Assembly: GCF_030867145.1 (NCBI RefSeq) | Contig: NC_134454.1 | Coordinates: 67,128,308-67,192,307 of the forward strand | Source of the DNA: Opisthocomus hoazin | Lineage: Eukaryota > Chordata > Aves > Opisthocomiformes > Opisthocomidae | Length of the DNA stretch: 64,000 bases | Reading direction: 5' to 3' | In this document: in pieces, positions 17,096 to 48,481 of the stretch | Layout: each line of letters opens with the position of its first letter | Numbering within the stretch: the stretch's first letter is position 1 | Translations under genes and position numbers: made by a program | Notes under the pieces: generated by a model | Told to the model about the DNA's origin: nothing | The model's database searches: none | The model's input: only the letters and a program-made list of their open reading frames with translations

Positions 17096-17380
17096 CAGGG
17101 GTCTTCGAAGTGGGGGGTGTATACTCCAGGGGATGCACAAGATAAGCTGTTAGGGTGTGAGAAGAAAATATTTTTTGTACCATTAATAAATAAAACAAAA
17201 CAATTTTTAAAAATGTCTTTATTTCATCTTTATCTTATCCTTTTTAATTTATATTTTTATATGCATTTTATAATGTGCATAATATATTAGTACAGTAGTA
17301 CATGTATACAATTTATAATTGAAAAATAAATAAACATATATTGGGGGTGCGCAATCAAAAATGTTTTGAGACAACTACTG
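17096..17380. mobile_element. Small hAT-like non-autonomous DNA transposon remnant
   Basis: The left end starts CAGGGGTCTTCGAAGTGGGG. The right end, read on the other strand, starts CAGTAGTTGTCTCAAAAC and continues to a GCGCACCCCC block. CAGNGG/CAGTNGTT ends followed by a TCxAA block and a GC-rich step are typical of hAT-type terminal inverted repeats. The interior is AT-rich with no transposase frame. A clean 8-bp target-site duplication is not visible, although both flanks share a similar AGACAGAA...CTAG...ACAG string. The left breakpoint of the large duplication falls inside this element, so its last 45 bp also occur at 32829-32873. Confidence 0.45.
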
Positions 17381-20187
17381 TAAGACAGAATCCTAGACAG
17401 ATGGCAGAGTAGTATGCGGATGATCATACAGTTGATTTTGCTTTTACCTATTCCAATTTTAAACCAAAGTGGTTCTAGCTGAAGTATTTCTCATTCTGAT
17501 TCCAGTGTCAGATCATTGTCCTGCCATTCGTAGCTGGAAAAGTGGGGCCTTAATGCAAATGGAAACATTAGGTCAGCTGCAGGTTTGAAGCTGCTGAATC
17601 ATGAATAGAAGTGTCTTAGATCTCAACAGCATGCTGTGAGCTTGGTTTTCGTCACCTTGTTTTAATCTAGAAGTGCATTGAATTATACTGGAGTAAATCT
17701 GGTGCATGGGAAAGAAACAAATGCCTAGTCACTCTAAGGGTATCTATCTGTGGCTGAAAGCATCTAGAGACTTGACAGAGACTGTGCTCCTAGGAATTCA
17801 TTTTTGGGACTGAGATTTTATAGGACAAGTTATGGTCTGCAGTTTGATTTTTTGAAAAACAGATTTTTTGAAAAAGGGTTATTATCCAGTGCACAGATAA
17901 AAAGCCACCACTACATACCTGCACTTAGGGAGTATTAGCCGTTTGGTCCAATGAAGGATCGTGTTGTGAAAGAAGAAGTTCCAGCCTTCAGGTATCCAAA
18001 GCTTCTGGTGTCTCACACCACTCATGGTTTGCCAGTCTAAAATCGTGAATGTGGAGACAAGTGCTTGTCCTTGGCCTTTGCAAACAGGCTGTTGCTGTGA
18101 CAAATTCAGAGAGAGATGTTGAATTACCGAATGTGCAACAGAATCTGAGGCTGCCAGGAAGGAAATACCTGTCTAGCCTGGACTGTTCTAGCTTTTTTGG
18201 GAAAACTCCCTCCTGGTGCAAAAATGCAACTTACTGATTAATCCAGAGCCTGAAAAGAGACCTCCCATCTCAGTTCAGCAAATAATGGTCTGGCCGTGAA
18301 AGATGTTATACTGCTTGATAGTCAGATAAACTGCCATGAAGATGTGGGAGATCTATGGCTATTGAGAAAACAGTCATTACCCATGGCTACTATGGATAGC
18401 AATTATCTGTGATAACTACTGACTTTTTTCAGCTTGGAAAAAGGCTGCCTGCTTTACTGTTTGTTAGGCTAGAACTTGTCAGGGTTAGAATTTAAAGGAG
18501 TTGGATTTCCGTGACAGTCTGACTTGTCTTCAGCAAACTCTCTCAGACACCAAGACTACAGAATGTGACATTGGAGGAAAAAATATTGACATGAAGAATA
18601 ATTTCATTTCAGGATAGAAGTACAGATTTAGGGTAGTATCTGTAGCAAGGAAAGTAATATTTAGATGAAATCACTTTTCCTCAGAAAAGGCCTGAAACTG
18701 AAAAAATCTTCTAATTGACAGCTGGATCAATAGGATATATCCCTTAGGTCTTGAACACGTGGACTGAAGTCCTCCAAACTCTGCTTAATTTATGGGATAA
18801 ACTTGAACTTAGGTCTTCTCCATGCTCAGAAGGCATCCTGGCCGTGAGGCTATTGGCTATGCTGAAGTAAGGCACTTTTCATCTCATGGTGGAGGTATTT
18901 GACAGCTTGTTAGAGCTGTGCCACTTTGTATAAACAATTAACTTGTCATAGGGATAGGGGTCTGAAACCACTTTACAGCTATATGCACAGAGCCACTGAA
19001 ACATTATCCCTAAGGACTAATGGATATCTATTTATTTACAGAAAGTAAAGTAATCAAGAGACAATTAGAGAGACAAACACTGACTATACTTTCCCTTGCT
19101 AACCTTCTTCTATTTAGGAAATGAACAATCAGCTAGTATTAACAATAACTTAATAGAAGCACCATTATTTGAATTAGGGTGACCACTGAGTCTCATCGTC
19201 TTTTAGATTTAGCCAGCTGTGTTATTTGCTGTTAATACTAGTGATTCATATTAATTTTTACAAAGTACTTTTGAATTGGGGATTTTGATGTTCTGGGAAA
19301 ATAAAAGAGAATCTATTCCAACAGATGATAAACATGAAAAGAAAAAGTTGAAAGAAAGCCTGTCCTCGCTGAAGACAATGTGAAGAACTTCAGTGCAAAA
19401 AAATCTTGCTTTTAACATGGCCAGAGCTTCATCCATTGTTTCCCCGTGAATTCTGAATATCTGTGAGATATAATATGTGTTGGCTTTCCCATAAATCTCA
19501 GTGGGACATACCCATGCAAACTGACCTGTATGTTTGCTAAGCATTATATATGTACTTAAAATACTTTGCAAAATCTGCACCCTCAACTGCCTCTGGCTGA
19601 ATCGAATTCACTTCATGAACAGAATAAAATAATTTGTGGTTTGAACAAAGACTCTTATTCCAAGAGTCCATTTATGGATGGAATTTTGCTTGCCATAATC
19701 TTTATTTTCATGTGGTTCTAAAGAAAATTGGTATTATGAAGCTGTCCACATATACTTGGTAAACACGTAGCCCTTATAAATGCAGAACTTCCATTAAAAT
19801 CGGTGGGGATTTTCCTGAGGAGTGAGCTGCTTTAACTTACAGCTGTCTTCATCTGGTGTCCATTCTGTGAACATCATCCTCAGGAGAACTGGAACATCCA
19901 CCTCAGGTATGAAGAAAACCAGGAGCCTAGTATAACCACAGAAGAAAGAAGCTGATAAAGATCCATCTTCAGTGAAACTCAACAGAAGACAAATCAAAAA
20001 TGGAAAAAGGAGTTAGAAAAAGTGACATGTACATACCAGAACTTCTCTTAAGGTGGTTTTCATGACAATGACCCCCAATAGAGCAGGCAAAAGGAGCTGC
20101 CATACAGGTAACAACTATTACAGAAAGAGCATTTGCTAAAAGCTGATTAGAATGCCATGATAAACATTACAGCAAAAAAGGGCAGAT

Positions 20188-20223
20188 ACCCAAAGTCAGG
20201 AATGTACCCAAAGTCAGGAATGT
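20188..20223. repeat. 2 x 18-bp perfect tandem repeat (unit 1)
   Basis: ACCCAAAGTCAGGAATGT occurs twice, back to back, with no mismatch. It is carried unchanged in the second duplication unit. Confidence 0.95.
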
Positions 20224-23200
20224 AGCCCTAACAGCAGTGATCTTGTGGATGAAGACTGATGGGTGCAGGGTTACTGTCATCAGGCAGCAGAGCTGATATT
20301 CCAACACTGTCTCCTAGAACAGTTTGCAGTTATTTTCATGGTCTTGGATGTATGCATTCCTATACTGCCTGTATTTTAAAGGAATGACACATTTGCATCC
20401 AGTTTCTTGTGTCTGACAATACCACCCTCATTTGCATCTCAGTAAGAAAGGTGGGATATGCCTTATTAGATGAAAAAGGTGCAAATATTATTGTGGTACA
20501 GAGTAACCAAGAAACCATTTCCTTTCAACAGCAAATTTTTCAGCCTACCTGTTTTCCTCCATTCAACTACCTTAAAAATGCAGAATAACGGGATATTATT
20601 TACAGCAGCCAAGATCTTTAACCTGCACTTGGTGACAAAGTGCAATGGAAACCAGTATTACATTTTTGTCTGTGCTCATTTGACAGAGTATATTCTAATT
20701 TAGTTGTCACAGACTTCTTTGAATCTTACTATGTTCTCAGTTTTTGTAAGATTTATGGCCATTGTTAACTACATTTTGATTTAACTATCCTGATTTACAG
20801 CAGCTGGGAAGGCAAACCCACATCTCTCAATAATGACATTTATTCTAACTAATTTCCACTGTTCTTAATCCAGAAACTTTTTTTGACTTTTAAATTTAAA
20901 TACTGATTATTACTTTCTATCTTCACTTATGATTAATAATACGACCTATGCTATTACATATTGAAAAGGCTTGAAATCCATTTCTCTACTTAACCACCAG
21001 AAAGATGGATGCAAGAAGAACCAAATATTATGCAGAAGTAGGAGTTTGCTTCAGACTATATATGCATTGAGTAAGGTAGTTCAAGGAGAGCGAAGAGCTG
21101 TTTATAGAGTTAGTTACTGATAATGCTCTTCTGAAAATTGAAACTAGACGCAAGTAAATTAGTTTCTCAGGTGGAAATTTCACATCTGCCGAAGTGAATC
21201 CTCTCAGAAAAAAAAGAACTTTACGGGCTCTCTTCTCCTGGGACAATGCTTCCAAGAGACACAACAGGTACTCCAGTTTTGAGAAGAGCTTAGAGAGCTA
21301 GGAAAGCTTCCCTATGATGTGAAGAAACTGGAGTAATTCTATTCAGACAGAACCTCTTTAGGAAGATGTATAAGAGGTAGAAAAAATAAGGGTATAGAAG
21401 GTATTTCGGGCTTTTCTTAATGCACAAATACAAGGCTTGCTAATAAAAACATAAAAATCCATTTATAATACTTTACACAACATATAATTAAACTATTCAA
21501 GTTGTTGGCAAATGTGAAATAAAGGGCATGAGCAAGATATGCTTCCTTTTTGAACCTGACATTTTTATGACCTTAATTACATTAGGGTAAATATTTATGT
21601 AAAGATATATGAATAGATTCTGTCTTTTTTTTTTGAACATACATTAATCATTAACTGTGTGGGACTGCAAAATCTTTCAGTAATTTCTCCAGTAGGTATA
21701 TTGCTCATAATTGTCCAACAAGGTTTTATGCCTTCCTCTGAAACTCCAGTTTGTGGCCACTGACAAATAAAAATGCATCACTTGTCTGAATGAGTGGAGC
21801 TGCTCCCAGCTGCAGGTTGCACTTAGCCTACATGGACTTCAGAATAAAAGGGGAAGAGGCCAAATCTCCCTCTGAGTTATCCTGACAAAACCCCTTGGAC
21901 TTCAATAATTTCAATCCAATCAACTCCACTTTTTGTAGATTAATAGGAAAAAAATGCACTTAATTATTGGGAAGAGCCAGACACAATGTCCTGACCCCAT
22001 GTCGCCTTCGTTGGCGTGGCGACCCCCCATAAGACTTAAAGGCAGGATTTCTGGTGGCAGAAATGAAGCAAAGGCATTTCTCCCTCTCTGAACCTTAAGT
22101 ACTTACCTACCACTTAGTGAATGATCAGATAGAAGTCCCCACAGAGGATGATGCAGCCACAGTCTAAAATGTGAGTCCCTAAATGAACATCCAGGATTTG
22201 ATCGGTGTGAGGAATAGAATGGGTAATTATTTTTTTCCTGTGATCTTCTGTTGTGTGGTTTAAAGCCAGACAGATTATTAACTTGAATGATAATGCGGAC
22301 ACAAAGAATCATAAATACCACCTTCTTCAGCTCTAGTCTCTCTCATTGTCTTGTAATAATCAAATACAAGTAAATTTGTCCCTGTGGTGACAATGTTACT
22401 CTGACACCAAGATAAACAAAAACAGATATGTGCATTTCTGCAGAAAATTATTTACTCCCCTTTTTGTTTGAAAAACCTTAGCCAGCATAATTACTTATGA
22501 AAGTCCTGCAGAAACAGAAATGGAGAATAAGCAAAAAGTAATTGAATTCAAGGGCGATATCATAATATTGATTTCTTACTAAAAAAGGAATATGATGCAG
22601 AAGACGATACAAAGTGAAGAGATACATGAAGTATATGTATGGCTGTAATGTTAATTTTCGTGGAACCCTCTTTGGAAAAATCTAAGAATAACTTCTTTCG
22701 ATTAGTGGATGAACTATGTTGTTTCTTGATTCACATAATCAGGATGTTGGATGGAGATAGGAGAATGTCCCACAGATATTCAGACAGGGAGGAAAAAAGA
22801 GCTTTTTGCCATAGTCCTCTTGCTTCTAAAGGAGATGGACATAAACAGGTAACAACTGTCCATTTACTTTCTCCTCCAGAGAAGTGGAAAGGAGAAAATT
22901 AATTGCTTCTCTCAGAGGCATAATTGTATGCTTCTTTACAATAATACAATTATATATTGCACCAGAGTACAGGTGAAAGAAAACTTATCTAGCCTTGCAT
23001 GACTAACATAAAAGCATCTTCACAAGAAAAACTCTGATGACCTTGAGGGATACATGAGGTACTGGATACATAAAACACATTGTGACTCTTTTGTATGAAC
23101 AGTGGTGAAGATAATATTTTTGGAGAGAATAGAGAAGAAGGGTCTAGTTTGTTAGAATTTTCTTAATGTCTTGTTCTCAGACATTGTTTTGTAGTGGTAA

Positions 23201-26200
23201 AGACACCTGTGCTAGAATGCTGAGGTCTTGAATGTAACTAATTGGACACCACATCTAACAGAAGTAGTAAGGGCTAGCTTTCAGCCAAGTTCATTACTGC
23301 AACATGTGCCTATGGGCAAAATTTTGATCCTCACAAAACCTGCTGTAGATGAAGATTCCTGAAACTGTTGGCAGGATGCTGTGCACTACAATACACTTTA
23401 CAGCCTCCATGGTTGTGATCGGCCTTTCAGATAGTTTGAGGACCTCAAAATCTGATCCTATCTGGTCAGATGAGATTAAAAATTAGGAACTGACAACTAG
23501 GTGATGTCAGGCAGAAAAACCTGCCCGATTTTACTTAATTTGAGCTTAACTCAGCTGTAACAGAAACTGTGAAGAGGGAGTTCAGATGGCCATTGCAACT
23601 AGAAAGGAATGGTGAATGTCTGTGGCAGATGTGATGAAGCTCCTAAGAGCACAGAAATTTTGCCTAGCACTTAGGAGCTTATAAAAAGTGATTAATGGGA
23701 TAGGAGAGCAGAGAAGAAAAAAACATTGGGAAAGATCTAATGTCATCAAGGAACAGCACTAGCACCCAAGAAATAACACAACATCCCCCATACTGTTACG
23801 GTGATGTTTAAGATCTGATCAAATCTCACTTAACTGTACCTTCATTAGCTTTGTTTCTTTGTAGTAGACAGGGTCTGTTTAGCTTATTTTGGTAGTAAAC
23901 TCACCCATTAGGTTATGCAACGTGTTACTCTCTTTGTGTCTCTAAGTGCTGTGGTTAGCCAAAATATCTATTTCCCCTCATTGTATGTTTTCCCTTGCTG
24001 GCCTCCTTTAAGAATCATCTGGTGAATGGACTGAAAGTGAGGTGGGGAGCAGTGGCCTGCACTGCTCATCTGTGTCCTGGACTTTTCCACTGATCTGTTC
24101 TCCACTGGTGACTTCATTGGTTAACTTCAGAGAGCCTTCATTGTTACTGTGATGAATACACAGAACTGGTTATGTCCTGGCAAGACCAAGCTCACATCTA
24201 AGCTCCAGCTGGATTCCCAGACTGTCCAGCAAGTTTATTTTGAACTAACCTAATCCCATACAAACATAATCAAGAGGAGGTAGTAGTGGTGCCTCCCACC
24301 ATGTTATACCCCAAAACTCAGGACTTTTAAAACTATTTGACAGTAGACAGCAACTTCCTGAGGTTTCTAGTTCTGCTGATGGAATTATGTATCTGAACTA
24401 CCTTGGTGAGAACAGGCTAAGTAACCCCCTTCTCCCTAGCATTTGCTATTGGGAGGATTAAGAGGCTGTACTCTCAATGTGCCAACTTTAGTGGATGTTT
24501 TTGGGGGATCTCTGAACTCCATTTGTTTCATAGGAATCCTGGGTGATTAACTTAACCTGAACCCTGCTAGGTAGCAGAGTGCTTAGAAGTTAACGAACAG
24601 CAACAACGGGTCAACCCTTACAAACTGACCTCAAGTACAGGATGCTGCTAAAAGGGGTGTTTCTGCCTTGTCCTTTGCCATATACTCCAGCTGCCTCGAT
24701 GGGACTAGCATTTGTGCATGGTGCAGTGATCGTACTAGGAAAACTCACAAAGAAAAATAAGGGGTTTGCAGCTAATTCCTCAAGAGCACATTTACTTCCA
24801 GCAAGAAAAGAAGACAACTTTCATCCACGAGCAGAGTCCCAGGTTCCTGGGAAGACGTTGTGGTTTAGTGCTGTGCCAACTGATGCCTTAGGTAAAGAAG
24901 GTAAATAGATCTGGAAAGACAATATCCTCATAGCCTTTGTCAAGGTCACTCTGAAAGCAGAGTCATGTGGGCCTCTATGACTGGACGTGACTTGTTTCTG
25001 GGTAGATAAAATAAATTGATTTTCATTTAAAAGGAAAAAGTTAGTCTGCAAAGGCAAGACCTTCCTAAGATTCAGTGTCTGCACAGCAGCCCTACTTTCT
25101 CCAAATGGTATTTTGTATAAGAGTATTATATTTATTTTAATGTAAGGAAATTAAAATTAAATCATAATAACTTCTTTTTTTAAAAAGTGCACTTGGATTA
25201 AAATACTATTGAATTGCAGTCAATATTGTTGAGCTCCAGTCAGTGTGCATCAAGTAGGAAAGTTTATATCCTTTATAAGCAATGATGTTGAAATCCTAGC
25301 TGCCCTCTTTATCGATTAAAGAGACAATGATGCTATGCAATTTACTTTTGATCTCTAGTGTAGCAGTGAAGCTCTGACATGGTAAGAGCAGGGGAAGTCA
25401 TCAGTTGCTACGCCTGCAACTCAATTGTAAGATTCAAGTACCTTAACGTTGTTTTGGAAAATAGTGATGAACTTATTTAAATTGGCCTGATATTTAAAGC
25501 TGTGTCCTGTAGCAGTTTAGCTAGAGAAATGAGCTCTTTTTTCATAACTTACTGTTATTAGAGAATAATTTGCCTCTTACTTTGTCTCCTCTGAAGTGAA
25601 ATAATACAAATATATAAAAGCGGCAAAAATGACCCTTGCAATAAAAACCTTTGGAGCATAAATCTCCTTAAGCTAAAATTTATTTGGAAGTCTTTTAAAG
25701 CTCATTGTATAAAATTCCTTCTCATCTAGAAGCTAGTCCATACCTTTTTGGGGTGGGGGGGTGGAGAGAACAAAACAAAAAGAGCTTGAATGTGTCCACT
25801 AAAATATATCCATAAATAAAGTAACAAATAAGAGAAAAATATAGAAATGCTTGCAAAGTTTGGAATAGACCGGCAGTCCTTATTTGAACAATGATGCAAA
25901 TATTCTTTAATACCTGGAACAATTACATAAGATTTGGAATAATACTGGAATCTGGTATGTAATGCTTTAAGCCACTTGTTATTTTGATATAAGATGAATA
26001 CGAATGCTAAGTAAATAGATGGAATAATCTTAATTAGCTACAAGAAAAAGTGTGACTTAACCAAGAAGCTGCTCAGTGCTAGTCAGCAATTTTAGAATGG
26101 TTGTTATTAAGATGATTTATTTTGCAAACTTTGTTTGAGAAAAAATTACTGGTGAGCTAGTATTTTTAATTAAATTGCAAGTAGCAGATTACGGTTTTTA

Positions 26201-29200
26201 AGAAACCATTTATCCATTTTCTGGATTCTTGGGACTGTATTGCACCACGCAGGTGATTCTTAAGTAGTTACAAAATCTTTCTTCACAGAGACAGCTCCTA
26301 ATGCACCAGCTCTGTGTACTGCTCTCTCCCTTGTCTCTGACATGGGAGATGTACTGATAAAAACCTCAGCATAGCTGGAACATTGCTTTGTTCTCCACAG
26401 CATGATTAGACTCCACTAAATAGATTTTCCCAGAGTTTCTTTGAGTTCAAATCCGTGCTTAGCAGCTTAAGTATCAAGAAAATATCAAGAATATGCACTA
26501 ATGGTTAAGAAACAATCTTCTGGCTCTTTCTTCATCACAGCTGCACTGCGTATAGAAGGCGCAACACAGAAAATTTTGCCTAAAGTTGAGTTTTCCCCTA
26601 ATGTCAAAATTCTGAGAATTTTCTATAAACTTACGAAAACTTATGTTTGAACAAATCTGCTTGAAAGTCTCTTTCCTTCACAGAGGTACAATATTAAAGT
26701 GAACATCTTTCAAAATTCATCTTAAACTCAAAAGCTGCCCATGAGTTTGATAGCAGGCATCACCAGTAACAGTTTCATTTCAGTGATGCTGCTTGAATAT
26801 ACATAACATTGATTCACTTTGGATGAAATATTTACCTATTCTATAACTTGCAAGACTGTGACATAGAATGAATTATCCCCTTTTGTGGGTTATGCTGAAT
26901 TATGTTATAATTTCAGTTACTACTGTAAGCTCTTGGCAGAGAAAGGCAGAAGTGGCGAATAAATACTTGTATATGTGAATAATTTGTTTCTGGCCTTAAT
27001 AAAAATGATGAACATGAGAGTTGTGGTAAGGCAGCTGAACGGAATGAGAATGGGACTGTGGAACTTGCAGTTGGCTCACCATTTTCTAGGATGATAGTGG
27101 TGACCGGCATATCTGAGGCAAACAGAAAACATGATTAATAACGTGGGAAACGTAATAGACAGGCACTCTAGCATTCTGAGATGGTGGTTATCCCTGCGTG
27201 TTCCAAGTCGTTCCTCTGTGTTATCGAGCCCAGATTATTGACCTGGTTCTAACTATGAAATGAAGAGAGGCCAGAAATCTGACAGGGTTCGGTGCAGAGC
27301 CACCAGAAGCTGAATTAGCAGCATGTGAACCCAGCTGTACCACTCCCAAGACCTCTTCAAGCCATGAAGCAGCACTGCTGCTTTGACATGACTGGCACCG
27401 GAGCTAGCAGATCGTATCAGGCCTGACCTTGGCTGTCACTGTCCTGTGTCTGCAGAACTGGGAGTGTTAAGGGGCAGGTTGAGAGACATCTCACTGCCAT
27501 GCAGGACCTAAGTCAGCCTGAAGCTAAGTGTTGTGCTGATACTGTCACCTCTGTTAGAGACAAGTTGATGCTTGCAGAGCTACTGGGATGTCCCAGCGCT
27601 GCAGAGCTCCTAGTGGGCCACAGCCAGCCAGCTCTGAGCTGCCTGGACAGGGCTGCAGTGAGAACTAGCTTCCGTGCCCCAAAAGGGACAAGATAATGAG
27701 ATGGCACAAAGGCGATCCAGAATTTGAGAACATAGGCTTGCTTACTGTGCTATTGCACTGCATTTGGAGTCCACTGATTCTGAGCAGATGAACTGTAGGA
27801 TTCAAGTGGGATTTTTTTCCCCCTCTTCATATATACGAGTTGGACGTGCAGGGCTTCACACACTGGCCATAGCTAGAAACAGGACACAGGGAACAGTTCT
27901 GCTACTGGTACTGAAAGTTACTTAAATTCCTGGCTGGTTCATCTTGTCCACAAAGCCAGCACTAAACAGACGGCCACATTTGGACTCATTTTGAGCCAGA
28001 GCAATCTGGCTGAGATCTATGCAGCTACGACACTAGCAACGGCCTGAAACTTCTCTGTCCCCTTCCTATAGCTTTTGCTCTTTTACAGTACAAAGCTTAA
28101 ATATACTAATGTACTGTGAAATGTTTTGTGCTTTATGAAAGGTGGAAGCAGGTATCCTGAAGTGAATCTCTTAGCAAAATGCGTGTGCTTGTGTGAAAGC
28201 GATGAGTTTCAACGATATAGTCACTTCAGCCATTAAATTCTTGTTTGATTTCCTGTATTTTAAAGTCATAGCTATTCTTCAGAACGTTTTGAACAGTGTG
28301 GAGTAGTGCTAATTCCTGTTGGCTGTATTGCCAAGATGCCTAAAGAGAAAATTGAAGAAGGCTGTAGTTGGTAGGTTGTCTCTTGGCAGTTTTCCTTCCA
28401 CCCGTTTGGAACTTCTCTCACAGAAAACTGCACCTACTGGATCAGTTTCAGTGAACTGAAATCGTTAATTTCCTTAGCACCCTATTAAAGCCTATTCATT
28501 TTGAAACCATTACTGGAATATAATTTCTTTAATAACAGAAATGTGGTGTCTTATTCTGGTGAATAGTAAAAACCCCAAGAACAAAATCCTTTTCAAATCG
28601 AAGTATAACAGGCAACTACATGAAAAAAATGATGCGATCAAATTGTATCATTTCAGTTTTACTTTGGCAAATAGATAATACAATCATAGTGTGAGAGCAT
28701 GAAGAATATGTAGCTCTCCCTTTTTTTGAAATGTGTAGAATGACATTGCTCAGGAAAACATCTTCCACCACAGTTGATAATGCTTTTTCTTTTTATACTT
28801 ACTAAGGAATCTGTTGTTTGCTGCAGCTGTGTCATAGCTGAATAACATTAATATTTTAATTGGACTTTTTAAGGGTGTGTGGTGTTAGGGTTTCATTTGT
28901 TCTCAAGTCAGCTTGGATTTTATGAGGCTATGGCTTTCCTTAAAGAACTGCCCTAGGTGCTTCACCTAGGTTATCTAAAGACATTAGCACATCATTTAGT
29001 TGCTTGAAAGTTTAACCAGCGTTTTGCTGTTCAAATGCTTAGTAGGATTAAAGACATTATCACATCAAAAGACCGAGTTTTGCCTTCGTCTGCATCTTCC
29101 ACCTCCTACTCCCTCCCCTTCCTCCATGACTGCCTAAATTGCCTCTCAATTTAATTCAGAGTGAATTGACTTTCAGTCTCTGAACAAAAAATAAAAAAGT

Positions 29201-29387
29201 AAAGCCGATTTAAAAGATTTCAATTGAAAAAGAATCCTGTCGACTTTTCCCCACTGGAATTTCTCGACAAGAAGTGTCGGGGATTGACTTCGCTTGGCCG
29301 TGTCAGCGCAAAACACTTCTGGAAACAGTTTCCTCAAGAGCTCTTCGTGGACTCCTAAAACCTGCATCCCCCCCGGCTTTGAAACGC

Positions 29388-29416
29388 TAATTTCAGGCTA
29401 ATCTAATTAGGCTAAT
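29388..29416. promoter_or_regulatory. Cluster of four TAAT homeodomain cores upstream of HTR1A copy 1
   Basis: TAAT occurs at 29388, 29399, 29404 (as TAATTA) and 29413, i.e. four cores in 29 bp, about 1.9 kb upstream of the start codon, where GC content begins to rise. Homeodomain proteins, including the serotonergic-neuron factor LMX1B, bind TAAT cores. That this is an HTR1A enhancer is inference only. Confidence 0.3.
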
Positions 29417-30469
29417 GACTTGCACGCCACCGTGCAAAAAAGCTGGGACAATCCTCGAGATTTTCCTGCCTCCCAGACTTGCACTTTCTTCGTTGAATCC
29501 GGCTGGCTCTGAACAGCAAGAAGTACAAACTTCCATTTCACTGGAGGGAACGGGTCTTGAAATAGGCGGGCTGCTTAGCAGCCATCCTTGCCCTGCAGTT
29601 GAGGGAGACGTTGAAAAGAAAGTAGGTTTTGGTGGTGAAGGAGCAAAGCATACTTAAATATCGATTACGTATTGTCTGTGTCTCAGCAGGTTTGTCTGTT
29701 TCTCAGCGGGGTGAGTCTTCATTCAGCAGGGCACAAAGCTAGTGAGATCGGCCAACACAACGGGCGCGCAGGAGCCGGCTCTGCTCCGCCCTGCGCCTGC
29801 ATCGTTTACAGCAAAGATCGCAAGCCTAGGCGTGGAGAAAGGTAGCCTGGTCCCCTCGTAAAGAGGAACGGGCCAAAATCTGTCCAAACGCTGAGCAAGT
29901 TGTGAACTCATCCTTCTTTTTAAGTGCCGACCGGGAGGAGTAAACCTGAGCGTGTGCAAGCCAGGCTCTGCGCTCCTTGTCCCAAGTTTGATTAACTTAG
30001 AATCTGGCAAGTCTTCCCGTTCGGCATTTACTTACTTGGCTTTCTGCGTTTTCTGAGCTTGCGTGGCACAATCACAAAGCAGACCGAAAGATCTCATATC
30101 GTTAAAAATATTGAGCCGCAAGGTAGCGGAAAGCCGGCCACAGAAGTTATGTCAAAGGACTTTCGTTTACCTCTCACGGACAGCCAGAGTCAAGCCTGTC
30201 AATAACGCCCCCACCCCCCCCTTAAAATGACAGATGTTTCCCAGGTTTGTGACTGTTTGTTCTGTTTACTGGATATTAACTGATTTGCTTATGATGTGTC
30301 AGCCCGACACTCTTTCTTTTCTTCAAGATCGTTCCCAGAGATATTTTTCTCATTTCTCTTTCAGACTCAGCCTTTCCCCCTCCTGCCGGGAGGAAATGTA
30401 ACGCGTTTTATTTATTTTTTCTTTTCTTTTATTTTTTTTTTCTTATCTTTGTTGCTGCCTCGAGAGCCC

Positions 30470-32555: not shown

Positions 32556-32827
32556 AGCCCGATGCTCCGGGACGGGGGCAGCGGGGGTCGTGCCGCTCAC
32601 TCCATCCGCCCGGCTGTCCCCGCCGCGGTGTCCCTTCCTCCCCCGCCCAGCCCCCCCCCCCCCCCGACGCCAGCAGAAGAGCGGGGGGCTCCTGGATCCC
32701 CCCCTCGGCATCGTGCCCGAGTACCCTCGCTCCTCCGCCCGTCGGACAAGCCCCGCGGGGCAGGGCAGGGGTCCACCGGGGACGGCGGGGGGACCCTCGG
32801 GCCGGGGAGGGGCGGCTTCGCGGCGGC
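32556..32827 (+). other. Truncated 3' flank/3' UTR of HTR1A copy 1
   Basis: GC-rich 3' flank matching that of copy 2 for about 270 bp, then cut by the duplication junction. It contains the C15 run (32651-32665). No AATAAA or ATTAAA occurs before the junction, so any transcript of this copy would need to use a poly(A) signal in the AT-rich DNA beyond it; an AATAAA is present near 34792. Confidence 0.75.
32651..32665. repeat. C15 homopolymer (differs between copies)
   Basis: Fifteen consecutive C residues directly after CCCAG. The equivalent tract of copy 2 (48144-48165) is CCT followed by 19 C. This is the only difference seen between the two 15.5-kb units. Confidence 0.95.
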
Positions 32828-35680: not shown

Positions 35681-35716
35681 ACCCAAAGTCAGGAATGTAC
35701 CCAAAGTCAGGAATGT
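35681..35716. repeat. 2 x 18-bp perfect tandem repeat (unit 2)
   Basis: The same ACCCAAAGTCAGGAATGT doublet as in unit 1, unchanged. A two-copy minisatellite that has not expanded or contracted agrees with very low divergence between the units. Confidence 0.95.
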
Positions 35717-38700
35717 AGCCCTAACAGCAGTGATCTTGTGGATGAAGACTGATGGGTGCAGGGTTACTGTCATCAGGCAGCAGAGCTGATATTCCAACAC
35801 TGTCTCCTAGAACAGTTTGCAGTTATTTTCATGGTCTTGGATGTATGCATTCCTATACTGCCTGTATTTTAAAGGAATGACACATTTGCATCCAGTTTCT
35901 TGTGTCTGACAATACCACCCTCATTTGCATCTCAGTAAGAAAGGTGGGATATGCCTTATTAGATGAAAAAGGTGCAAATATTATTGTGGTACAGAGTAAC
36001 CAAGAAACCATTTCCTTTCAACAGCAAATTTTTCAGCCTACCTGTTTTCCTCCATTCAACTACCTTAAAAATGCAGAATAACGGGATATTATTTACAGCA
36101 GCCAAGATCTTTAACCTGCACTTGGTGACAAAGTGCAATGGAAACCAGTATTACATTTTTGTCTGTGCTCATTTGACAGAGTATATTCTAATTTAGTTGT
36201 CACAGACTTCTTTGAATCTTACTATGTTCTCAGTTTTTGTAAGATTTATGGCCATTGTTAACTACATTTTGATTTAACTATCCTGATTTACAGCAGCTGG
36301 GAAGGCAAACCCACATCTCTCAATAATGACATTTATTCTAACTAATTTCCACTGTTCTTAATCCAGAAACTTTTTTTGACTTTTAAATTTAAATACTGAT
36401 TATTACTTTCTATCTTCACTTATGATTAATAATACGACCTATGCTATTACATATTGAAAAGGCTTGAAATCCATTTCTCTACTTAACCACCAGAAAGATG
36501 GATGCAAGAAGAACCAAATATTATGCAGAAGTAGGAGTTTGCTTCAGACTATATATGCATTGAGTAAGGTAGTTCAAGGAGAGCGAAGAGCTGTTTATAG
36601 AGTTAGTTACTGATAATGCTCTTCTGAAAATTGAAACTAGACGCAAGTAAATTAGTTTCTCAGGTGGAAATTTCACATCTGCCGAAGTGAATCCTCTCAG
36701 AAAAAAAAGAACTTTACGGGCTCTCTTCTCCTGGGACAATGCTTCCAAGAGACACAACAGGTACTCCAGTTTTGAGAAGAGCTTAGAGAGCTAGGAAAGC
36801 TTCCCTATGATGTGAAGAAACTGGAGTAATTCTATTCAGACAGAACCTCTTTAGGAAGATGTATAAGAGGTAGAAAAAATAAGGGTATAGAAGGTATTTC
36901 GGGCTTTTCTTAATGCACAAATACAAGGCTTGCTAATAAAAACATAAAAATCCATTTATAATACTTTACACAACATATAATTAAACTATTCAAGTTGTTG
37001 GCAAATGTGAAATAAAGGGCATGAGCAAGATATGCTTCCTTTTTGAACCTGACATTTTTATGACCTTAATTACATTAGGGTAAATATTTATGTAAAGATA
37101 TATGAATAGATTCTGTCTTTTTTTTTTGAACATACATTAATCATTAACTGTGTGGGACTGCAAAATCTTTCAGTAATTTCTCCAGTAGGTATATTGCTCA
37201 TAATTGTCCAACAAGGTTTTATGCCTTCCTCTGAAACTCCAGTTTGTGGCCACTGACAAATAAAAATGCATCACTTGTCTGAATGAGTGGAGCTGCTCCC
37301 AGCTGCAGGTTGCACTTAGCCTACATGGACTTCAGAATAAAAGGGGAAGAGGCCAAATCTCCCTCTGAGTTATCCTGACAAAACCCCTTGGACTTCAATA
37401 ATTTCAATCCAATCAACTCCACTTTTTGTAGATTAATAGGAAAAAAATGCACTTAATTATTGGGAAGAGCCAGACACAATGTCCTGACCCCATGTCGCCT
37501 TCGTTGGCGTGGCGACCCCCCATAAGACTTAAAGGCAGGATTTCTGGTGGCAGAAATGAAGCAAAGGCATTTCTCCCTCTCTGAACCTTAAGTACTTACC
37601 TACCACTTAGTGAATGATCAGATAGAAGTCCCCACAGAGGATGATGCAGCCACAGTCTAAAATGTGAGTCCCTAAATGAACATCCAGGATTTGATCGGTG
37701 TGAGGAATAGAATGGGTAATTATTTTTTTCCTGTGATCTTCTGTTGTGTGGTTTAAAGCCAGACAGATTATTAACTTGAATGATAATGCGGACACAAAGA
37801 ATCATAAATACCACCTTCTTCAGCTCTAGTCTCTCTCATTGTCTTGTAATAATCAAATACAAGTAAATTTGTCCCTGTGGTGACAATGTTACTCTGACAC
37901 CAAGATAAACAAAAACAGATATGTGCATTTCTGCAGAAAATTATTTACTCCCCTTTTTGTTTGAAAAACCTTAGCCAGCATAATTACTTATGAAAGTCCT
38001 GCAGAAACAGAAATGGAGAATAAGCAAAAAGTAATTGAATTCAAGGGCGATATCATAATATTGATTTCTTACTAAAAAAGGAATATGATGCAGAAGACGA
38101 TACAAAGTGAAGAGATACATGAAGTATATGTATGGCTGTAATGTTAATTTTCGTGGAACCCTCTTTGGAAAAATCTAAGAATAACTTCTTTCGATTAGTG
38201 GATGAACTATGTTGTTTCTTGATTCACATAATCAGGATGTTGGATGGAGATAGGAGAATGTCCCACAGATATTCAGACAGGGAGGAAAAAAGAGCTTTTT
38301 GCCATAGTCCTCTTGCTTCTAAAGGAGATGGACATAAACAGGTAACAACTGTCCATTTACTTTCTCCTCCAGAGAAGTGGAAAGGAGAAAATTAATTGCT
38401 TCTCTCAGAGGCATAATTGTATGCTTCTTTACAATAATACAATTATATATTGCACCAGAGTACAGGTGAAAGAAAACTTATCTAGCCTTGCATGACTAAC
38501 ATAAAAGCATCTTCACAAGAAAAACTCTGATGACCTTGAGGGATACATGAGGTACTGGATACATAAAACACATTGTGACTCTTTTGTATGAACAGTGGTG
38601 AAGATAATATTTTTGGAGAGAATAGAGAAGAAGGGTCTAGTTTGTTAGAATTTTCTTAATGTCTTGTTCTCAGACATTGTTTTGTAGTGGTAAAGACACC

Positions 38701-41700
38701 TGTGCTAGAATGCTGAGGTCTTGAATGTAACTAATTGGACACCACATCTAACAGAAGTAGTAAGGGCTAGCTTTCAGCCAAGTTCATTACTGCAACATGT
38801 GCCTATGGGCAAAATTTTGATCCTCACAAAACCTGCTGTAGATGAAGATTCCTGAAACTGTTGGCAGGATGCTGTGCACTACAATACACTTTACAGCCTC
38901 CATGGTTGTGATCGGCCTTTCAGATAGTTTGAGGACCTCAAAATCTGATCCTATCTGGTCAGATGAGATTAAAAATTAGGAACTGACAACTAGGTGATGT
39001 CAGGCAGAAAAACCTGCCCGATTTTACTTAATTTGAGCTTAACTCAGCTGTAACAGAAACTGTGAAGAGGGAGTTCAGATGGCCATTGCAACTAGAAAGG
39101 AATGGTGAATGTCTGTGGCAGATGTGATGAAGCTCCTAAGAGCACAGAAATTTTGCCTAGCACTTAGGAGCTTATAAAAAGTGATTAATGGGATAGGAGA
39201 GCAGAGAAGAAAAAAACATTGGGAAAGATCTAATGTCATCAAGGAACAGCACTAGCACCCAAGAAATAACACAACATCCCCCATACTGTTACGGTGATGT
39301 TTAAGATCTGATCAAATCTCACTTAACTGTACCTTCATTAGCTTTGTTTCTTTGTAGTAGACAGGGTCTGTTTAGCTTATTTTGGTAGTAAACTCACCCA
39401 TTAGGTTATGCAACGTGTTACTCTCTTTGTGTCTCTAAGTGCTGTGGTTAGCCAAAATATCTATTTCCCCTCATTGTATGTTTTCCCTTGCTGGCCTCCT
39501 TTAAGAATCATCTGGTGAATGGACTGAAAGTGAGGTGGGGAGCAGTGGCCTGCACTGCTCATCTGTGTCCTGGACTTTTCCACTGATCTGTTCTCCACTG
39601 GTGACTTCATTGGTTAACTTCAGAGAGCCTTCATTGTTACTGTGATGAATACACAGAACTGGTTATGTCCTGGCAAGACCAAGCTCACATCTAAGCTCCA
39701 GCTGGATTCCCAGACTGTCCAGCAAGTTTATTTTGAACTAACCTAATCCCATACAAACATAATCAAGAGGAGGTAGTAGTGGTGCCTCCCACCATGTTAT
39801 ACCCCAAAACTCAGGACTTTTAAAACTATTTGACAGTAGACAGCAACTTCCTGAGGTTTCTAGTTCTGCTGATGGAATTATGTATCTGAACTACCTTGGT
39901 GAGAACAGGCTAAGTAACCCCCTTCTCCCTAGCATTTGCTATTGGGAGGATTAAGAGGCTGTACTCTCAATGTGCCAACTTTAGTGGATGTTTTTGGGGG
40001 ATCTCTGAACTCCATTTGTTTCATAGGAATCCTGGGTGATTAACTTAACCTGAACCCTGCTAGGTAGCAGAGTGCTTAGAAGTTAACGAACAGCAACAAC
40101 GGGTCAACCCTTACAAACTGACCTCAAGTACAGGATGCTGCTAAAAGGGGTGTTTCTGCCTTGTCCTTTGCCATATACTCCAGCTGCCTCGATGGGACTA
40201 GCATTTGTGCATGGTGCAGTGATCGTACTAGGAAAACTCACAAAGAAAAATAAGGGGTTTGCAGCTAATTCCTCAAGAGCACATTTACTTCCAGCAAGAA
40301 AAGAAGACAACTTTCATCCACGAGCAGAGTCCCAGGTTCCTGGGAAGACGTTGTGGTTTAGTGCTGTGCCAACTGATGCCTTAGGTAAAGAAGGTAAATA
40401 GATCTGGAAAGACAATATCCTCATAGCCTTTGTCAAGGTCACTCTGAAAGCAGAGTCATGTGGGCCTCTATGACTGGACGTGACTTGTTTCTGGGTAGAT
40501 AAAATAAATTGATTTTCATTTAAAAGGAAAAAGTTAGTCTGCAAAGGCAAGACCTTCCTAAGATTCAGTGTCTGCACAGCAGCCCTACTTTCTCCAAATG
40601 GTATTTTGTATAAGAGTATTATATTTATTTTAATGTAAGGAAATTAAAATTAAATCATAATAACTTCTTTTTTTAAAAAGTGCACTTGGATTAAAATACT
40701 ATTGAATTGCAGTCAATATTGTTGAGCTCCAGTCAGTGTGCATCAAGTAGGAAAGTTTATATCCTTTATAAGCAATGATGTTGAAATCCTAGCTGCCCTC
40801 TTTATCGATTAAAGAGACAATGATGCTATGCAATTTACTTTTGATCTCTAGTGTAGCAGTGAAGCTCTGACATGGTAAGAGCAGGGGAAGTCATCAGTTG
40901 CTACGCCTGCAACTCAATTGTAAGATTCAAGTACCTTAACGTTGTTTTGGAAAATAGTGATGAACTTATTTAAATTGGCCTGATATTTAAAGCTGTGTCC
41001 TGTAGCAGTTTAGCTAGAGAAATGAGCTCTTTTTTCATAACTTACTGTTATTAGAGAATAATTTGCCTCTTACTTTGTCTCCTCTGAAGTGAAATAATAC
41101 AAATATATAAAAGCGGCAAAAATGACCCTTGCAATAAAAACCTTTGGAGCATAAATCTCCTTAAGCTAAAATTTATTTGGAAGTCTTTTAAAGCTCATTG
41201 TATAAAATTCCTTCTCATCTAGAAGCTAGTCCATACCTTTTTGGGGTGGGGGGGTGGAGAGAACAAAACAAAAAGAGCTTGAATGTGTCCACTAAAATAT
41301 ATCCATAAATAAAGTAACAAATAAGAGAAAAATATAGAAATGCTTGCAAAGTTTGGAATAGACCGGCAGTCCTTATTTGAACAATGATGCAAATATTCTT
41401 TAATACCTGGAACAATTACATAAGATTTGGAATAATACTGGAATCTGGTATGTAATGCTTTAAGCCACTTGTTATTTTGATATAAGATGAATACGAATGC
41501 TAAGTAAATAGATGGAATAATCTTAATTAGCTACAAGAAAAAGTGTGACTTAACCAAGAAGCTGCTCAGTGCTAGTCAGCAATTTTAGAATGGTTGTTAT
41601 TAAGATGATTTATTTTGCAAACTTTGTTTGAGAAAAAATTACTGGTGAGCTAGTATTTTTAATTAAATTGCAAGTAGCAGATTACGGTTTTTAAGAAACC

Positions 41701-44700
41701 ATTTATCCATTTTCTGGATTCTTGGGACTGTATTGCACCACGCAGGTGATTCTTAAGTAGTTACAAAATCTTTCTTCACAGAGACAGCTCCTAATGCACC
41801 AGCTCTGTGTACTGCTCTCTCCCTTGTCTCTGACATGGGAGATGTACTGATAAAAACCTCAGCATAGCTGGAACATTGCTTTGTTCTCCACAGCATGATT
41901 AGACTCCACTAAATAGATTTTCCCAGAGTTTCTTTGAGTTCAAATCCGTGCTTAGCAGCTTAAGTATCAAGAAAATATCAAGAATATGCACTAATGGTTA
42001 AGAAACAATCTTCTGGCTCTTTCTTCATCACAGCTGCACTGCGTATAGAAGGCGCAACACAGAAAATTTTGCCTAAAGTTGAGTTTTCCCCTAATGTCAA
42101 AATTCTGAGAATTTTCTATAAACTTACGAAAACTTATGTTTGAACAAATCTGCTTGAAAGTCTCTTTCCTTCACAGAGGTACAATATTAAAGTGAACATC
42201 TTTCAAAATTCATCTTAAACTCAAAAGCTGCCCATGAGTTTGATAGCAGGCATCACCAGTAACAGTTTCATTTCAGTGATGCTGCTTGAATATACATAAC
42301 ATTGATTCACTTTGGATGAAATATTTACCTATTCTATAACTTGCAAGACTGTGACATAGAATGAATTATCCCCTTTTGTGGGTTATGCTGAATTATGTTA
42401 TAATTTCAGTTACTACTGTAAGCTCTTGGCAGAGAAAGGCAGAAGTGGCGAATAAATACTTGTATATGTGAATAATTTGTTTCTGGCCTTAATAAAAATG
42501 ATGAACATGAGAGTTGTGGTAAGGCAGCTGAACGGAATGAGAATGGGACTGTGGAACTTGCAGTTGGCTCACCATTTTCTAGGATGATAGTGGTGACCGG
42601 CATATCTGAGGCAAACAGAAAACATGATTAATAACGTGGGAAACGTAATAGACAGGCACTCTAGCATTCTGAGATGGTGGTTATCCCTGCGTGTTCCAAG
42701 TCGTTCCTCTGTGTTATCGAGCCCAGATTATTGACCTGGTTCTAACTATGAAATGAAGAGAGGCCAGAAATCTGACAGGGTTCGGTGCAGAGCCACCAGA
42801 AGCTGAATTAGCAGCATGTGAACCCAGCTGTACCACTCCCAAGACCTCTTCAAGCCATGAAGCAGCACTGCTGCTTTGACATGACTGGCACCGGAGCTAG
42901 CAGATCGTATCAGGCCTGACCTTGGCTGTCACTGTCCTGTGTCTGCAGAACTGGGAGTGTTAAGGGGCAGGTTGAGAGACATCTCACTGCCATGCAGGAC
43001 CTAAGTCAGCCTGAAGCTAAGTGTTGTGCTGATACTGTCACCTCTGTTAGAGACAAGTTGATGCTTGCAGAGCTACTGGGATGTCCCAGCGCTGCAGAGC
43101 TCCTAGTGGGCCACAGCCAGCCAGCTCTGAGCTGCCTGGACAGGGCTGCAGTGAGAACTAGCTTCCGTGCCCCAAAAGGGACAAGATAATGAGATGGCAC
43201 AAAGGCGATCCAGAATTTGAGAACATAGGCTTGCTTACTGTGCTATTGCACTGCATTTGGAGTCCACTGATTCTGAGCAGATGAACTGTAGGATTCAAGT
43301 GGGATTTTTTTCCCCCTCTTCATATATACGAGTTGGACGTGCAGGGCTTCACACACTGGCCATAGCTAGAAACAGGACACAGGGAACAGTTCTGCTACTG
43401 GTACTGAAAGTTACTTAAATTCCTGGCTGGTTCATCTTGTCCACAAAGCCAGCACTAAACAGACGGCCACATTTGGACTCATTTTGAGCCAGAGCAATCT
43501 GGCTGAGATCTATGCAGCTACGACACTAGCAACGGCCTGAAACTTCTCTGTCCCCTTCCTATAGCTTTTGCTCTTTTACAGTACAAAGCTTAAATATACT
43601 AATGTACTGTGAAATGTTTTGTGCTTTATGAAAGGTGGAAGCAGGTATCCTGAAGTGAATCTCTTAGCAAAATGCGTGTGCTTGTGTGAAAGCGATGAGT
43701 TTCAACGATATAGTCACTTCAGCCATTAAATTCTTGTTTGATTTCCTGTATTTTAAAGTCATAGCTATTCTTCAGAACGTTTTGAACAGTGTGGAGTAGT
43801 GCTAATTCCTGTTGGCTGTATTGCCAAGATGCCTAAAGAGAAAATTGAAGAAGGCTGTAGTTGGTAGGTTGTCTCTTGGCAGTTTTCCTTCCACCCGTTT
43901 GGAACTTCTCTCACAGAAAACTGCACCTACTGGATCAGTTTCAGTGAACTGAAATCGTTAATTTCCTTAGCACCCTATTAAAGCCTATTCATTTTGAAAC
44001 CATTACTGGAATATAATTTCTTTAATAACAGAAATGTGGTGTCTTATTCTGGTGAATAGTAAAAACCCCAAGAACAAAATCCTTTTCAAATCGAAGTATA
44101 ACAGGCAACTACATGAAAAAAATGATGCGATCAAATTGTATCATTTCAGTTTTACTTTGGCAAATAGATAATACAATCATAGTGTGAGAGCATGAAGAAT
44201 ATGTAGCTCTCCCTTTTTTTGAAATGTGTAGAATGACATTGCTCAGGAAAACATCTTCCACCACAGTTGATAATGCTTTTTCTTTTTATACTTACTAAGG
44301 AATCTGTTGTTTGCTGCAGCTGTGTCATAGCTGAATAACATTAATATTTTAATTGGACTTTTTAAGGGTGTGTGGTGTTAGGGTTTCATTTGTTCTCAAG
44401 TCAGCTTGGATTTTATGAGGCTATGGCTTTCCTTAAAGAACTGCCCTAGGTGCTTCACCTAGGTTATCTAAAGACATTAGCACATCATTTAGTTGCTTGA
44501 AAGTTTAACCAGCGTTTTGCTGTTCAAATGCTTAGTAGGATTAAAGACATTATCACATCAAAAGACCGAGTTTTGCCTTCGTCTGCATCTTCCACCTCCT
44601 ACTCCCTCCCCTTCCTCCATGACTGCCTAAATTGCCTCTCAATTTAATTCAGAGTGAATTGACTTTCAGTCTCTGAACAAAAAATAAAAAAGTAAAGCCG

Positions 44701-44880
44701 ATTTAAAAGATTTCAATTGAAAAAGAATCCTGTCGACTTTTCCCCACTGGAATTTCTCGACAAGAAGTGTCGGGGATTGACTTCGCTTGGCCGTGTCAGC
44801 GCAAAACACTTCTGGAAACAGTTTCCTCAAGAGCTCTTCGTGGACTCCTAAAACCTGCATCCCCCCCGGCTTTGAAACGC

Positions 44881-44909
44881 TAATTTCAGGCTAATCTAAT
44901 TAGGCTAAT
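44881..44909. promoter_or_regulatory. Cluster of four TAAT homeodomain cores upstream of HTR1A copy 2
   Basis: Duplicate of the cluster at 29388-29416, with the same spacing to its gene (about 1.9 kb before the ATG). Enhancer function is inferred, not shown. Confidence 0.3.
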
Positions 44910-45962
44910 GACTTGCACGCCACCGTGCAAAAAAGCTGGGACAATCCTCGAGATTTTCCTGCCTCCCAGACTTGCACTTTCTTCGTTGAATCCGGCTGGC
45001 TCTGAACAGCAAGAAGTACAAACTTCCATTTCACTGGAGGGAACGGGTCTTGAAATAGGCGGGCTGCTTAGCAGCCATCCTTGCCCTGCAGTTGAGGGAG
45101 ACGTTGAAAAGAAAGTAGGTTTTGGTGGTGAAGGAGCAAAGCATACTTAAATATCGATTACGTATTGTCTGTGTCTCAGCAGGTTTGTCTGTTTCTCAGC
45201 GGGGTGAGTCTTCATTCAGCAGGGCACAAAGCTAGTGAGATCGGCCAACACAACGGGCGCGCAGGAGCCGGCTCTGCTCCGCCCTGCGCCTGCATCGTTT
45301 ACAGCAAAGATCGCAAGCCTAGGCGTGGAGAAAGGTAGCCTGGTCCCCTCGTAAAGAGGAACGGGCCAAAATCTGTCCAAACGCTGAGCAAGTTGTGAAC
45401 TCATCCTTCTTTTTAAGTGCCGACCGGGAGGAGTAAACCTGAGCGTGTGCAAGCCAGGCTCTGCGCTCCTTGTCCCAAGTTTGATTAACTTAGAATCTGG
45501 CAAGTCTTCCCGTTCGGCATTTACTTACTTGGCTTTCTGCGTTTTCTGAGCTTGCGTGGCACAATCACAAAGCAGACCGAAAGATCTCATATCGTTAAAA
45601 ATATTGAGCCGCAAGGTAGCGGAAAGCCGGCCACAGAAGTTATGTCAAAGGACTTTCGTTTACCTCTCACGGACAGCCAGAGTCAAGCCTGTCAATAACG
45701 CCCCCACCCCCCCCTTAAAATGACAGATGTTTCCCAGGTTTGTGACTGTTTGTTCTGTTTACTGGATATTAACTGATTTGCTTATGATGTGTCAGCCCGA
45801 CACTCTTTCTTTTCTTCAAGATCGTTCCCAGAGATATTTTTCTCATTTCTCTTTCAGACTCAGCCTTTCCCCCTCCTGCCGGGAGGAAATGTAACGCGTT
45901 TTATTTATTTTTTCTTTTCTTTTATTTTTTTTTTCTTATCTTTGTTGCTGCCTCGAGAGCCC

Positions 45963-46806
45963 GGTGACTCCAACCGCACGTCGCACTGTAGTTCGTCCGC
46001 CCCGCCGCCCCCCCCTCCCCGGGCATCGCCGGGGTGCGCGGTGCCCCCCGCCCCGGCCACAGACAGCCCCTCCCCGCCCCGCACAACACAGCGTTGGTCC
46101 CGAGGGGAAGCCCCCCCCCCCCCCAAGGGCACCCGCTGCCCGGGGCGGAGCTGCGGGGAGGAGATTTGGAGGGGGCGGGGGCTGGTTTGGGGGGGGGAGC
46201 CGCGGTGGGTTTCTCAGCGGTGTGTCGTGTTCCGTCCCCGTCCCCGTCCCCCCCAGAGGGGAGGAGGCGGCGGGGAGTGATGGACAGCGGCGGCCGCGGG
46301 GCCGCTCCGCCGGCGGCGCCGGGGGACGGAGGGGACCCGGCAAGACACCCCCCCCCCCCCCCCCCCCGCCGCGGAAGGGCGGGATGGAGGGGGGGGGGAC
46401 GGAAGGGGAGGGGAAGGGGGGAGGGAGAAGGCGAGGGGAGAGCGGAGCGGCAGAGCAGGTGGGAGCGGCGCGGGAGAGCGGCGGAGCGAGGGGGCAGCGG
46501 CTCGGCGAGCGGCGCCGGGAGGGCCGCCCCCGCCGCCCGGGGCTGCGCGCTGGGCAGGGGCGGTGGGGATGGGCGGGCGCGGGGCGGCTCAGACAGCCGC
46601 CGTCCTCCGAGCCCCGGCCGCCTCCCGCCGCGCTATATAGGGGAGGGAGGGGTGGCGGAGGACGGGGGGGGTTGCCCGGCGTGGCCGAAGCGCACGGGGC
46701 GGAGATGCCTCCTGCCCGGGGAGCGCACAAGCGACTGGCGCCTCTTCCCATGCCCGTCTCCTGAAGGGACCCCTCCTCACCCCCCCTCCCCGGACCCCTG
46801 CCCGGC
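45963..46806 (+). promoter_or_regulatory. CpG-island promoter and 5' UTR region of HTR1A copy 2
   Basis: Identical to the copy 1 promoter block, including a 14-C run, the 20-C run (46348-46367), the 10-G run (46389-46398) and the TATA element. Identical lengths of these homopolymers in both copies are notable because such tracts normally change length quickly. Confidence 0.7.
46634..46639 (+). promoter_or_regulatory. TATA box candidate, HTR1A copy 2
   Basis: TATATAGG in GC-rich surroundings, 173 bp before the ATG, exactly as in copy 1. Confidence 0.55.
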
Positions 46807-48048
46807 ATGGATGTGGCCAACAACACTACCTCCCCAGCGCGGTCCCCCGAGGGGCCCGGCGGCCCCGGCCTCGCCGAGGTGACCCTGGGCTACCAGCTGC
46901 TCACCTCCCTGCTCCTGGGCACGCTCATCCTGTGCGCCGTCAGCGGCAACGCCTGCGTGATCGCGGCCATCGCCCTGGAGCGCTCCCTGCAAACAGTGGC
47001 CAACTATCTCATCGGCTCGCTGGCCGTCACCGACCTCATGGTGTCCGTGCTGGTGCTGCCCATGGCGGCCCTCTACCAGGTGCTGAACAAGTGGACGCTG
47101 GGGCAGGTCACCTGCGACATCTTCATCTCGCTGGACGTGCTGTGCTGCACCTCTTCCATCCTGCACCTGTGCGCCATCGCCTTGGACAGGTACTGGGCCA
47201 TCACGGACCCCATCGACTATGTCAACAAGCGGACTCCCCGGAGGGCCGCCGCGCTCATCAGCCTGACCTGGCTCATCGGCTTCCTGATCTCCATCCCGCC
47301 CATGCTGGGCTGGAGGACGCCCGAGGACCGCTCGGACCCCGATGCCTGCACCATCAGCAAGGACCACGGGTACACCATCTACTCCACCTTCGGCGCCTTC
47401 TACATCCCTCTCTTCCTCATGCTGGTGCTCTACGGCCGCATCTTTAAGGCGGCCCGCTTCAGGATCCGCAAGACCGTCAAGAAAGCTGAGAAGAAGAGGA
47501 TGGCCGACACCTGCCTCACCCTCTCCCCGGCCGCCCTGCAGAAGAAGAGCAACGGGGAGCCCGGCAAGAGCTGGCGGCGGACGGTGGAGCCCAAGCCCGG
47601 CGCCTGTGTCAACGGCGCGGTGCGACTGGGCGAGGACGGGGCCGCCCTTGAGATCATCGAGGTCCAGCGCTGCGGCAGCTCCTCCAAGACTCACCTGCCG
47701 CTGCCCAGCGAAGCGTGTGGCTCCCCGCCGCCCCCCTCCTTCGAGAGGCGCAACGAGAAGAACACGGAGGCCAAGCGGAGGATGGCTCTGTCCCGCGAGA
47801 GGAAGACTGTCAAGACCCTGGGCATCATCATGGGGACCTTCATCCTCTGCTGGCTGCCGTTCTTCATCGTGGCGCTGGTCCTACCCTTTTGTGACAGTAA
47901 GTGCTACATGCCCGAGTGGCTGGGGGCAGTCATCAACTGGCTGGGCTACTCCAACTCCCTCCTCAACCCCATCATCTATGCCTATTTCAACAAAGACTTC
48001 CAAAGTGCTTTTAAGAAAATTATCAAGTGCAAGTTCTGCAGGCAGTGA
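46807..48048 (+). CDS. HTR1A: 5-hydroxytryptamine receptor 1A (serotonin 5-HT1A), copy 2
   Basis: Second intact 413-codon HTR1A reading frame, with a protein identical to copy 1: same sequon, D110, DRY 127-129, S193/T194, CWLPFF 348-353, NPIIY 387-391 and C-terminal CKFCRQ. This copy keeps the uninterrupted native 3' flank with a candidate poly(A) signal, so it has the arrangement expected of the ancestral 3' end. Its 5' flank is native only back to the junction at 32829, about 14 kb upstream; copy 1 has the native sequence further upstream. If only one gene exists in the real genome, the correct locus is 1-17335 joined to one unit and then to 48328 onward. Confidence 0.97.
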
Positions 48049-48143
48049 AGCCCGATGCTCCGGGACGGGGGCAGCGGGGGTCGTGCCGCTCACTCCATCC
48101 GCCCGGCTGTCCCCGCCGCGGTGTCCCTTCCTCCCCCGCCCAG

Positions 48144-48165
48144 CCTCCCCCCCCCCCCCCCCCCC
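48144..48165. repeat. CCT + C19 tract in copy 2 3' UTR
   Basis: Seven bases longer than the matching C15 run of copy 1 and containing one T. Length and base errors in long C runs are common in sequencing, so this difference is weak evidence for two true loci. Confidence 0.95.
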
Positions 48166-48481
48166 GACGCCAGCAGAAGAGCGGGGGGCTCCTGGATCCC
48201 CCCCTCGGCATCGTGCCCGAGTACCCTCGCTCCTCCGCCCGTCGGACAAGCCCCGCGGGGCAGGGCAGGGGTCCACCGGGGACGGCGGGGGGACCCTCGG
48301 GCCGGGGAGGGGCGGCTTCGCGGCGGCCCTCGCCTCGCCTGGCCCCGCCGGGTCTCCGCTGCCGGGCGCCGGCGCTCCCGCCTCCCCCCCCCCCCCCGTC
48401 CTTCTGGGCAGATTTAGGGTTTGCAGGTCGTTGCTTGTGGTCGCTGTAAACCACGGTGTCTGCCCGAGTAGCATCGGTAAA

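Follow-up and report, generated by a model that had tools for sequence, protein, structure and literature searches.

The question raised by this locus of Opisthocomus hoazin is whether the bird carries two adjacent HTR1A genes on its Z chromosome or a single gene that was assembled twice. The original prediction offered a very recent duplication and an assembler error as the two options, and this choice of alternatives holds. The copies differ by 0 substitutions. Self-BLASTN (word size 28, E 1e-20) of the window, the whole 64-kb stretch of DNA that was analysed, finds one repeat pair with exactly the predicted block limits: copy A at 17336..32827 (+ strand, 15,492 bp) and copy B at 32829..48327 (+ strand, 15,499 bp). 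The alignment contains 0 mismatches and one gap opening, and the copies agree exactly over 15,317 bases from the left end and 177 at the right. Their sole difference is a poly-C tract located about 180 bp (within 182 bp) inside the right end of the unit, which reads AG-C15-G in copy A (15 C without a T, 32651..32665) and AG-CC-T-C19-G in copy B (CC-T-C19, 48144..48165). Base runs of at least 8 number 11 in the unit, and 10 of them, including C14, C20 and G10, are equal between the copies, the poly-C tract being the exception.

The gene in each copy has an intact coding sequence. In copy A it lies at 31314..32555 (+) and forms one uninterrupted frame of 413 aa, while the frame at 46807..48048 (+) in copy B encodes an identical protein of 413 aa, which bears out the predicted pair of identical proteins. 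The best match of the copy A protein in the PDB is the 5-HT1A receptor (E 4.5e-222); among the best 60 of 885 distinct sequences (E<=0.001), the top seven are 5-HT1A and the next is 5-HT1B (E 2.5e-92). The 7tm_1 domain is matched with an E value of 2e-79. On these matches, the gene is predicted to be that of the 5-HT1A receptor (HTR1A), a rhodopsin-class receptor nearest 5-HT1A.

Both genes had been described as complete, which holds for the coding frames of both copies but is not supported for the 3' end of copy A, where the AATAAA is missing. In each copy, 13,978 bp of the unit precede the ATG, and in copy A 272 bp follow the stop codon. The first AATAAA after copy B (48482..48487, +), a candidate polyadenylation site by its motif, is found 434 nt past the stop codon of that copy and 155 bp past the right edge of the unit, and the same motif occurs in the W sequence. 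Because it lies outside the unit, it is absent after copy A, where the first AATAAA is encountered 2,238 nt past the stop codon, inside the upstream DNA of copy B. Copy A appears complete in coding sequence, and its 3' end is perhaps incomplete.

The existence of two HTR1A genes is not in itself without parallel. The zebrafish genes htr1aa and htr1ab are old paralogues differing in sequence, unlike the hoazin pair, which is adjacent and identical. The likeness lies in a vertebrate genome having HTR1A twice: an excerpt of a zebrafish gene table gives both htr1aa and htr1ab (PMC5515482), and the earlier statement that HTR1A is single-copy in vertebrates was consequently too broad. Among the open-licence matches listed, there was no useful literature on bird HTR1A duplication, HTR1A false duplication or HTR1A gametologs.

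The chromosomal setting determines which explanations have to be considered. The window lies on C41, which measures 91.3 Mb in a genome of 1.48 Gb, and C40 measures 50.4 Mb. Three of the five DM-domain matches are located on C41, in a cluster that we take to be DMRT1/2/3, and none on C40. C41 reads as the bird Z and C40 as the W, and the predicted Z-linkage of HTR1A agrees with the presence of the DM-domain cluster on the sequence bearing the window. The W gametolog of HTR1A, the sole whole-gene match on C40, lies at C40:44437508-44438737 and is 87% identical to the Z gene. An in-frame stop at codon 230 disrupts it, together with a shifted end; in alignment with the Z, the neighbouring W sequence reaches about 75-82%. 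Since the presence of a W implies a single Z, side-by-side alleles cannot cause the repeat. Two haplotypes laid in tandem are thereby ruled out, and the zero substitutions agree with this. The allelic differences between copies that define a heterotype (two-haplotype) false duplication are absent. The copies instead have the form of a homotype false duplication, in which they are identical but for errors and lack allelic variants: 0 substitutions and one poly-C difference were found.

The join between the copies is gapless and novel, as that of a real tandem duplication would be. No N bases occur in the whole 64-kb window, the join included, and the only spacer is a single G (32828), with a C before copy A (17335) and a C after copy B (48328). 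A real, very young 15.5-kb head-to-tail duplication on the Z, which we consider unlikely, would have arisen by end joining or replication error with one base inserted. Its left breakpoint would fall within a dispersed repeat, at a site rich in AT, and its right one in a C-rich, break-prone stretch. The left edge is indeed AT-rich (GC 0.28), without the GC-rich or C-run feature of the right edge, and the unit starts 32 bp before the end of a dispersed repeat copy (17086..17367) that has at least 39 other matches across the genome. A comparison of 300 bp on each side of the two unit edges revealed no homology between them at E<=1, which argues against a repeat-mediated origin and does not count against end joining.

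The right edge is unusual in composition. Within 100 bp its GC content is 0.81. In 128.5 kb of de-duplicated Z, 0.8% of positions reach this value, and when 150, 250 or 500 bp are taken on each side, 1.5, 1.1 and 2.4% of positions, respectively, reach that of the edge. The edge is flanked by runs of 19 C and 14 C, the latter being a second poly-C run (48384..48397) that starts 57 bp past the edge. In the same 128.5 kb there are four C/G runs of at least 11, two of which flank the right edge. C/G runs of at least 14 within 200 bp on both sides are found at 0.33% of positions, and a G4-like motif within 200 bp at 3.1%, the right edge being included in both cases. The GC and C-run measures were picked after the edge was seen and are descriptive only. 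A right edge at one of few C-run sites, beside the sole difference between the copies, speaks against a real duplication, although G4-prone DNA may also break in vivo.

The repeat is probably a homotype false duplication, that is, a contig end assembled twice, and most likely not a biological feature; under this reading, the bird has one Z-linked HTR1A. The observations from which the reading starts are the identity of the copies, the site of their sole difference, the GC-rich edge with its C runs, the Z/W setting, and another tandem repeat in the assembly, which spans a gap. Zero substitutions over the aligned 15.5 kb are expected if one hemizygous locus is assembled twice, and the single HTR1A copy carried by the W also supports this reading. 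A length of 15.5 kb is close to a typical HiFi read length. What we infer is the type of read used, that an overlap went unmerged and that the contigs were joined without a gap. Reads going right past HTR1A would meet the C-rich stretch, and one contig, its poly-C tract aberrant, would stop at 32827. Another would start about one read length earlier, at 17336, cross the C-rich stretch, and continue past 48327. The poly-C difference, lying in a run beside the right edge, could keep the overlap from being merged during assembly, and both contigs would then be placed end to end.

Passages of the assembly literature bear on this account. Homotype duplications are described as often lying at contig boundaries, with a size of about the read length (Rhie et al. 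2021, PMC8081667), and HiFi dropout is described in long A/G- or T/C-rich sequence (HiCanu, PMC7545148). For human assemblies made mostly with hifiasm, an excerpt of the HMM-Flagger preprint (PMC12991106) gives false duplications of 0.62% in release 1 and 0.22% in release 2. The passages on homotype false duplication (PMC8081667; PMC9516828) depict features shared by the HTR1A repeat, namely adjacent copies without allelic differences, an edge in hard sequence and probably a length in the long-read range; unlike the duplications depicted there, the HTR1A copies have no N between them.

Comparisons within the same assembly show how its other duplications look. The lists of family matches were read by eye for adjacent matches of the same score. 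They comprise 150 rows for 7tm_1, where 147 of 1158 candidates were scored, 150 rows for homeodomain, where the scored candidates were 150 of 323, and 54 rows for forkhead, for which all 60 were scored. The forkhead list contains no adjacent same-score pair. Among the homeodomain matches listed, one pair stands out from the 11 of a HOX-like cluster (C26:5106598-5256974). It belongs to a tandem repeat at C26:5172837-5193706, the copies of which are 10.3 kb long and 98.5% identical in BLASTN, with 22 mismatches and 85 gap openings. They flank a 200-N gap, one ending at the gap and the other starting two bases after it. A 9.2-kb MAFFT alignment of the copies yields 49 mismatches and 60 indels, of which 34 are near runs of at least 7. 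The HOX repeat very probably arose by false duplication of a contig end, with the gain of one homeodomain match. It resembles the HTR1A repeat in its adjacent copies, here of about 10 kb and adding a homeodomain match to a cluster, but differs in its 200-N gap, in its 98.5% identity with many indels, and in being autosomal, so that alleles can contribute. A 60-N run also occurs in the examined C26 stretch; consequently, the N runs of the assembly are not all of 200. A 7tm_1 gene on C1 (C1:140278801-140281300) recurs in the unplaced C248 and C410 with 99.9% identity over 2.1 kb; these two are mutually identical over 2,490 bases and read as residual duplicate contigs. Together with the HOX repeat, these copies demonstrate that residual duplication exists in the assembly. 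By score alone, same-score pairs are also seen between C13 and C54 (7tm_1) and between C39 and C393 (homeodomain).

Among the 7tm_1 matches listed, no genes other than those of HTR1A stand next to each other with the same score, and no second gapless duplication was seen among the 7tm_1, homeodomain and forkhead matches listed; the former counts against a real duplication. In addition, an identical 15.5-kb tandem repeat would be more easily collapsed than separated by reads of similar length. A real second HTR1A is the less likely reading, but several features fit it. Apart from the gapless join with its one inserted base, both copies are clean, C14 and C20 runs included, both frames are intact and identical, and the sole difference sits in an easily slipping tract. 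If mutation rates between 2e-9 and 1e-8 are assumed, finding zero differences across 15.5 kb limits the age to about 10,000-48,000 generations or years, depending on the unit of the rate. With such an age, a real duplication would probably be polymorphic. The repeat is like a young tandem gene duplication or copy-number variant in being head-to-tail and identical, with a gapless join and one inserted base; it is unlike one in that the HTR1A pair is known from the sequence of a single assembly.

The false-duplication reading also has to accommodate evidence that does not suit it. The HTR1A join contains no N, in contrast to the 200-N runs seen in the HOX repeat and the W stretch, and the HTR1A copies show far fewer discrepancies than those of HOX. 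That no second allele exists accounts for the absence of substitutions, though not entirely for the absence of indels. The single inserted G would be in keeping with end joining. The join could also stem from a minor molecule, such as a chimeric read or an extrachromosomal circle connecting unit end to unit start, that was threaded into the contig. Such an origin would explain the gapless join and the identical copies together, but a rare molecule would have to outweigh the ordinary path, and no sequence feature demands one; we regard it as very improbable. In the relevant passages of Ko et al. 2022 (PMC9516828), false duplications are mostly separated by gaps and sometimes joined by sequence without read support. 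It is on account of this norm of gap separation, the absence of N, the equal runs and the inserted G that a real duplication keeps a small share of the probability and a chimeric or circular molecule a very small one. The probabilities attached to the three readings are judgements and not calculations.

The consequences depend on which reading holds. If the repeat is an error, the gene lists of the species would carry a second HTR1A, misleading studies of copy number or dosage. It would also exemplify how a false duplication that is gapless and nearly base-perfect can pass gap-based filters. If the repeat is real, it would represent a sex-linked dose change of a central serotonin receptor in a species with a broken W copy, and thereby test Z dosage effects naturally. 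Because the W gene is broken, a ZW female would then carry two coding copies of HTR1A rather than one. The full picture, which we hold to be rather doubtful, would be a ZW bird with two Z-linked coding copies from a very young, perhaps polymorphic tandem duplication, a pseudogene as W gametolog, and a female dose doubled from one to two. Copy B would keep the native 3' end, while copy A would be placed on a foreign one and would need another polyadenylation site.

Some further features of the window and of the sex chromosomes were observed. Within the window, the frames at 56797-57718 and 69-696 resemble what we take to be avian CR1 LINE fragments; of four CR1-like frames tested, one matches a reverse transcriptase weakly (RVT_1, E 0.0054) and below the cut-off. 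The W stretch around HTR1A (C40:44378001-44498000) contains long near-identical direct and inverted repeats, the longest measuring 14.4 kb at 99.9%, and one 200-N run. The same homeodomain match (score 57.2, 641-aa frame) occurs at the Z end (C41:91232111-91232248) and at the W start (C40:109518-109655), with a same-score repeat match close to it on both chromosomes; Z and W thus both seem to include the pseudoautosomal region.
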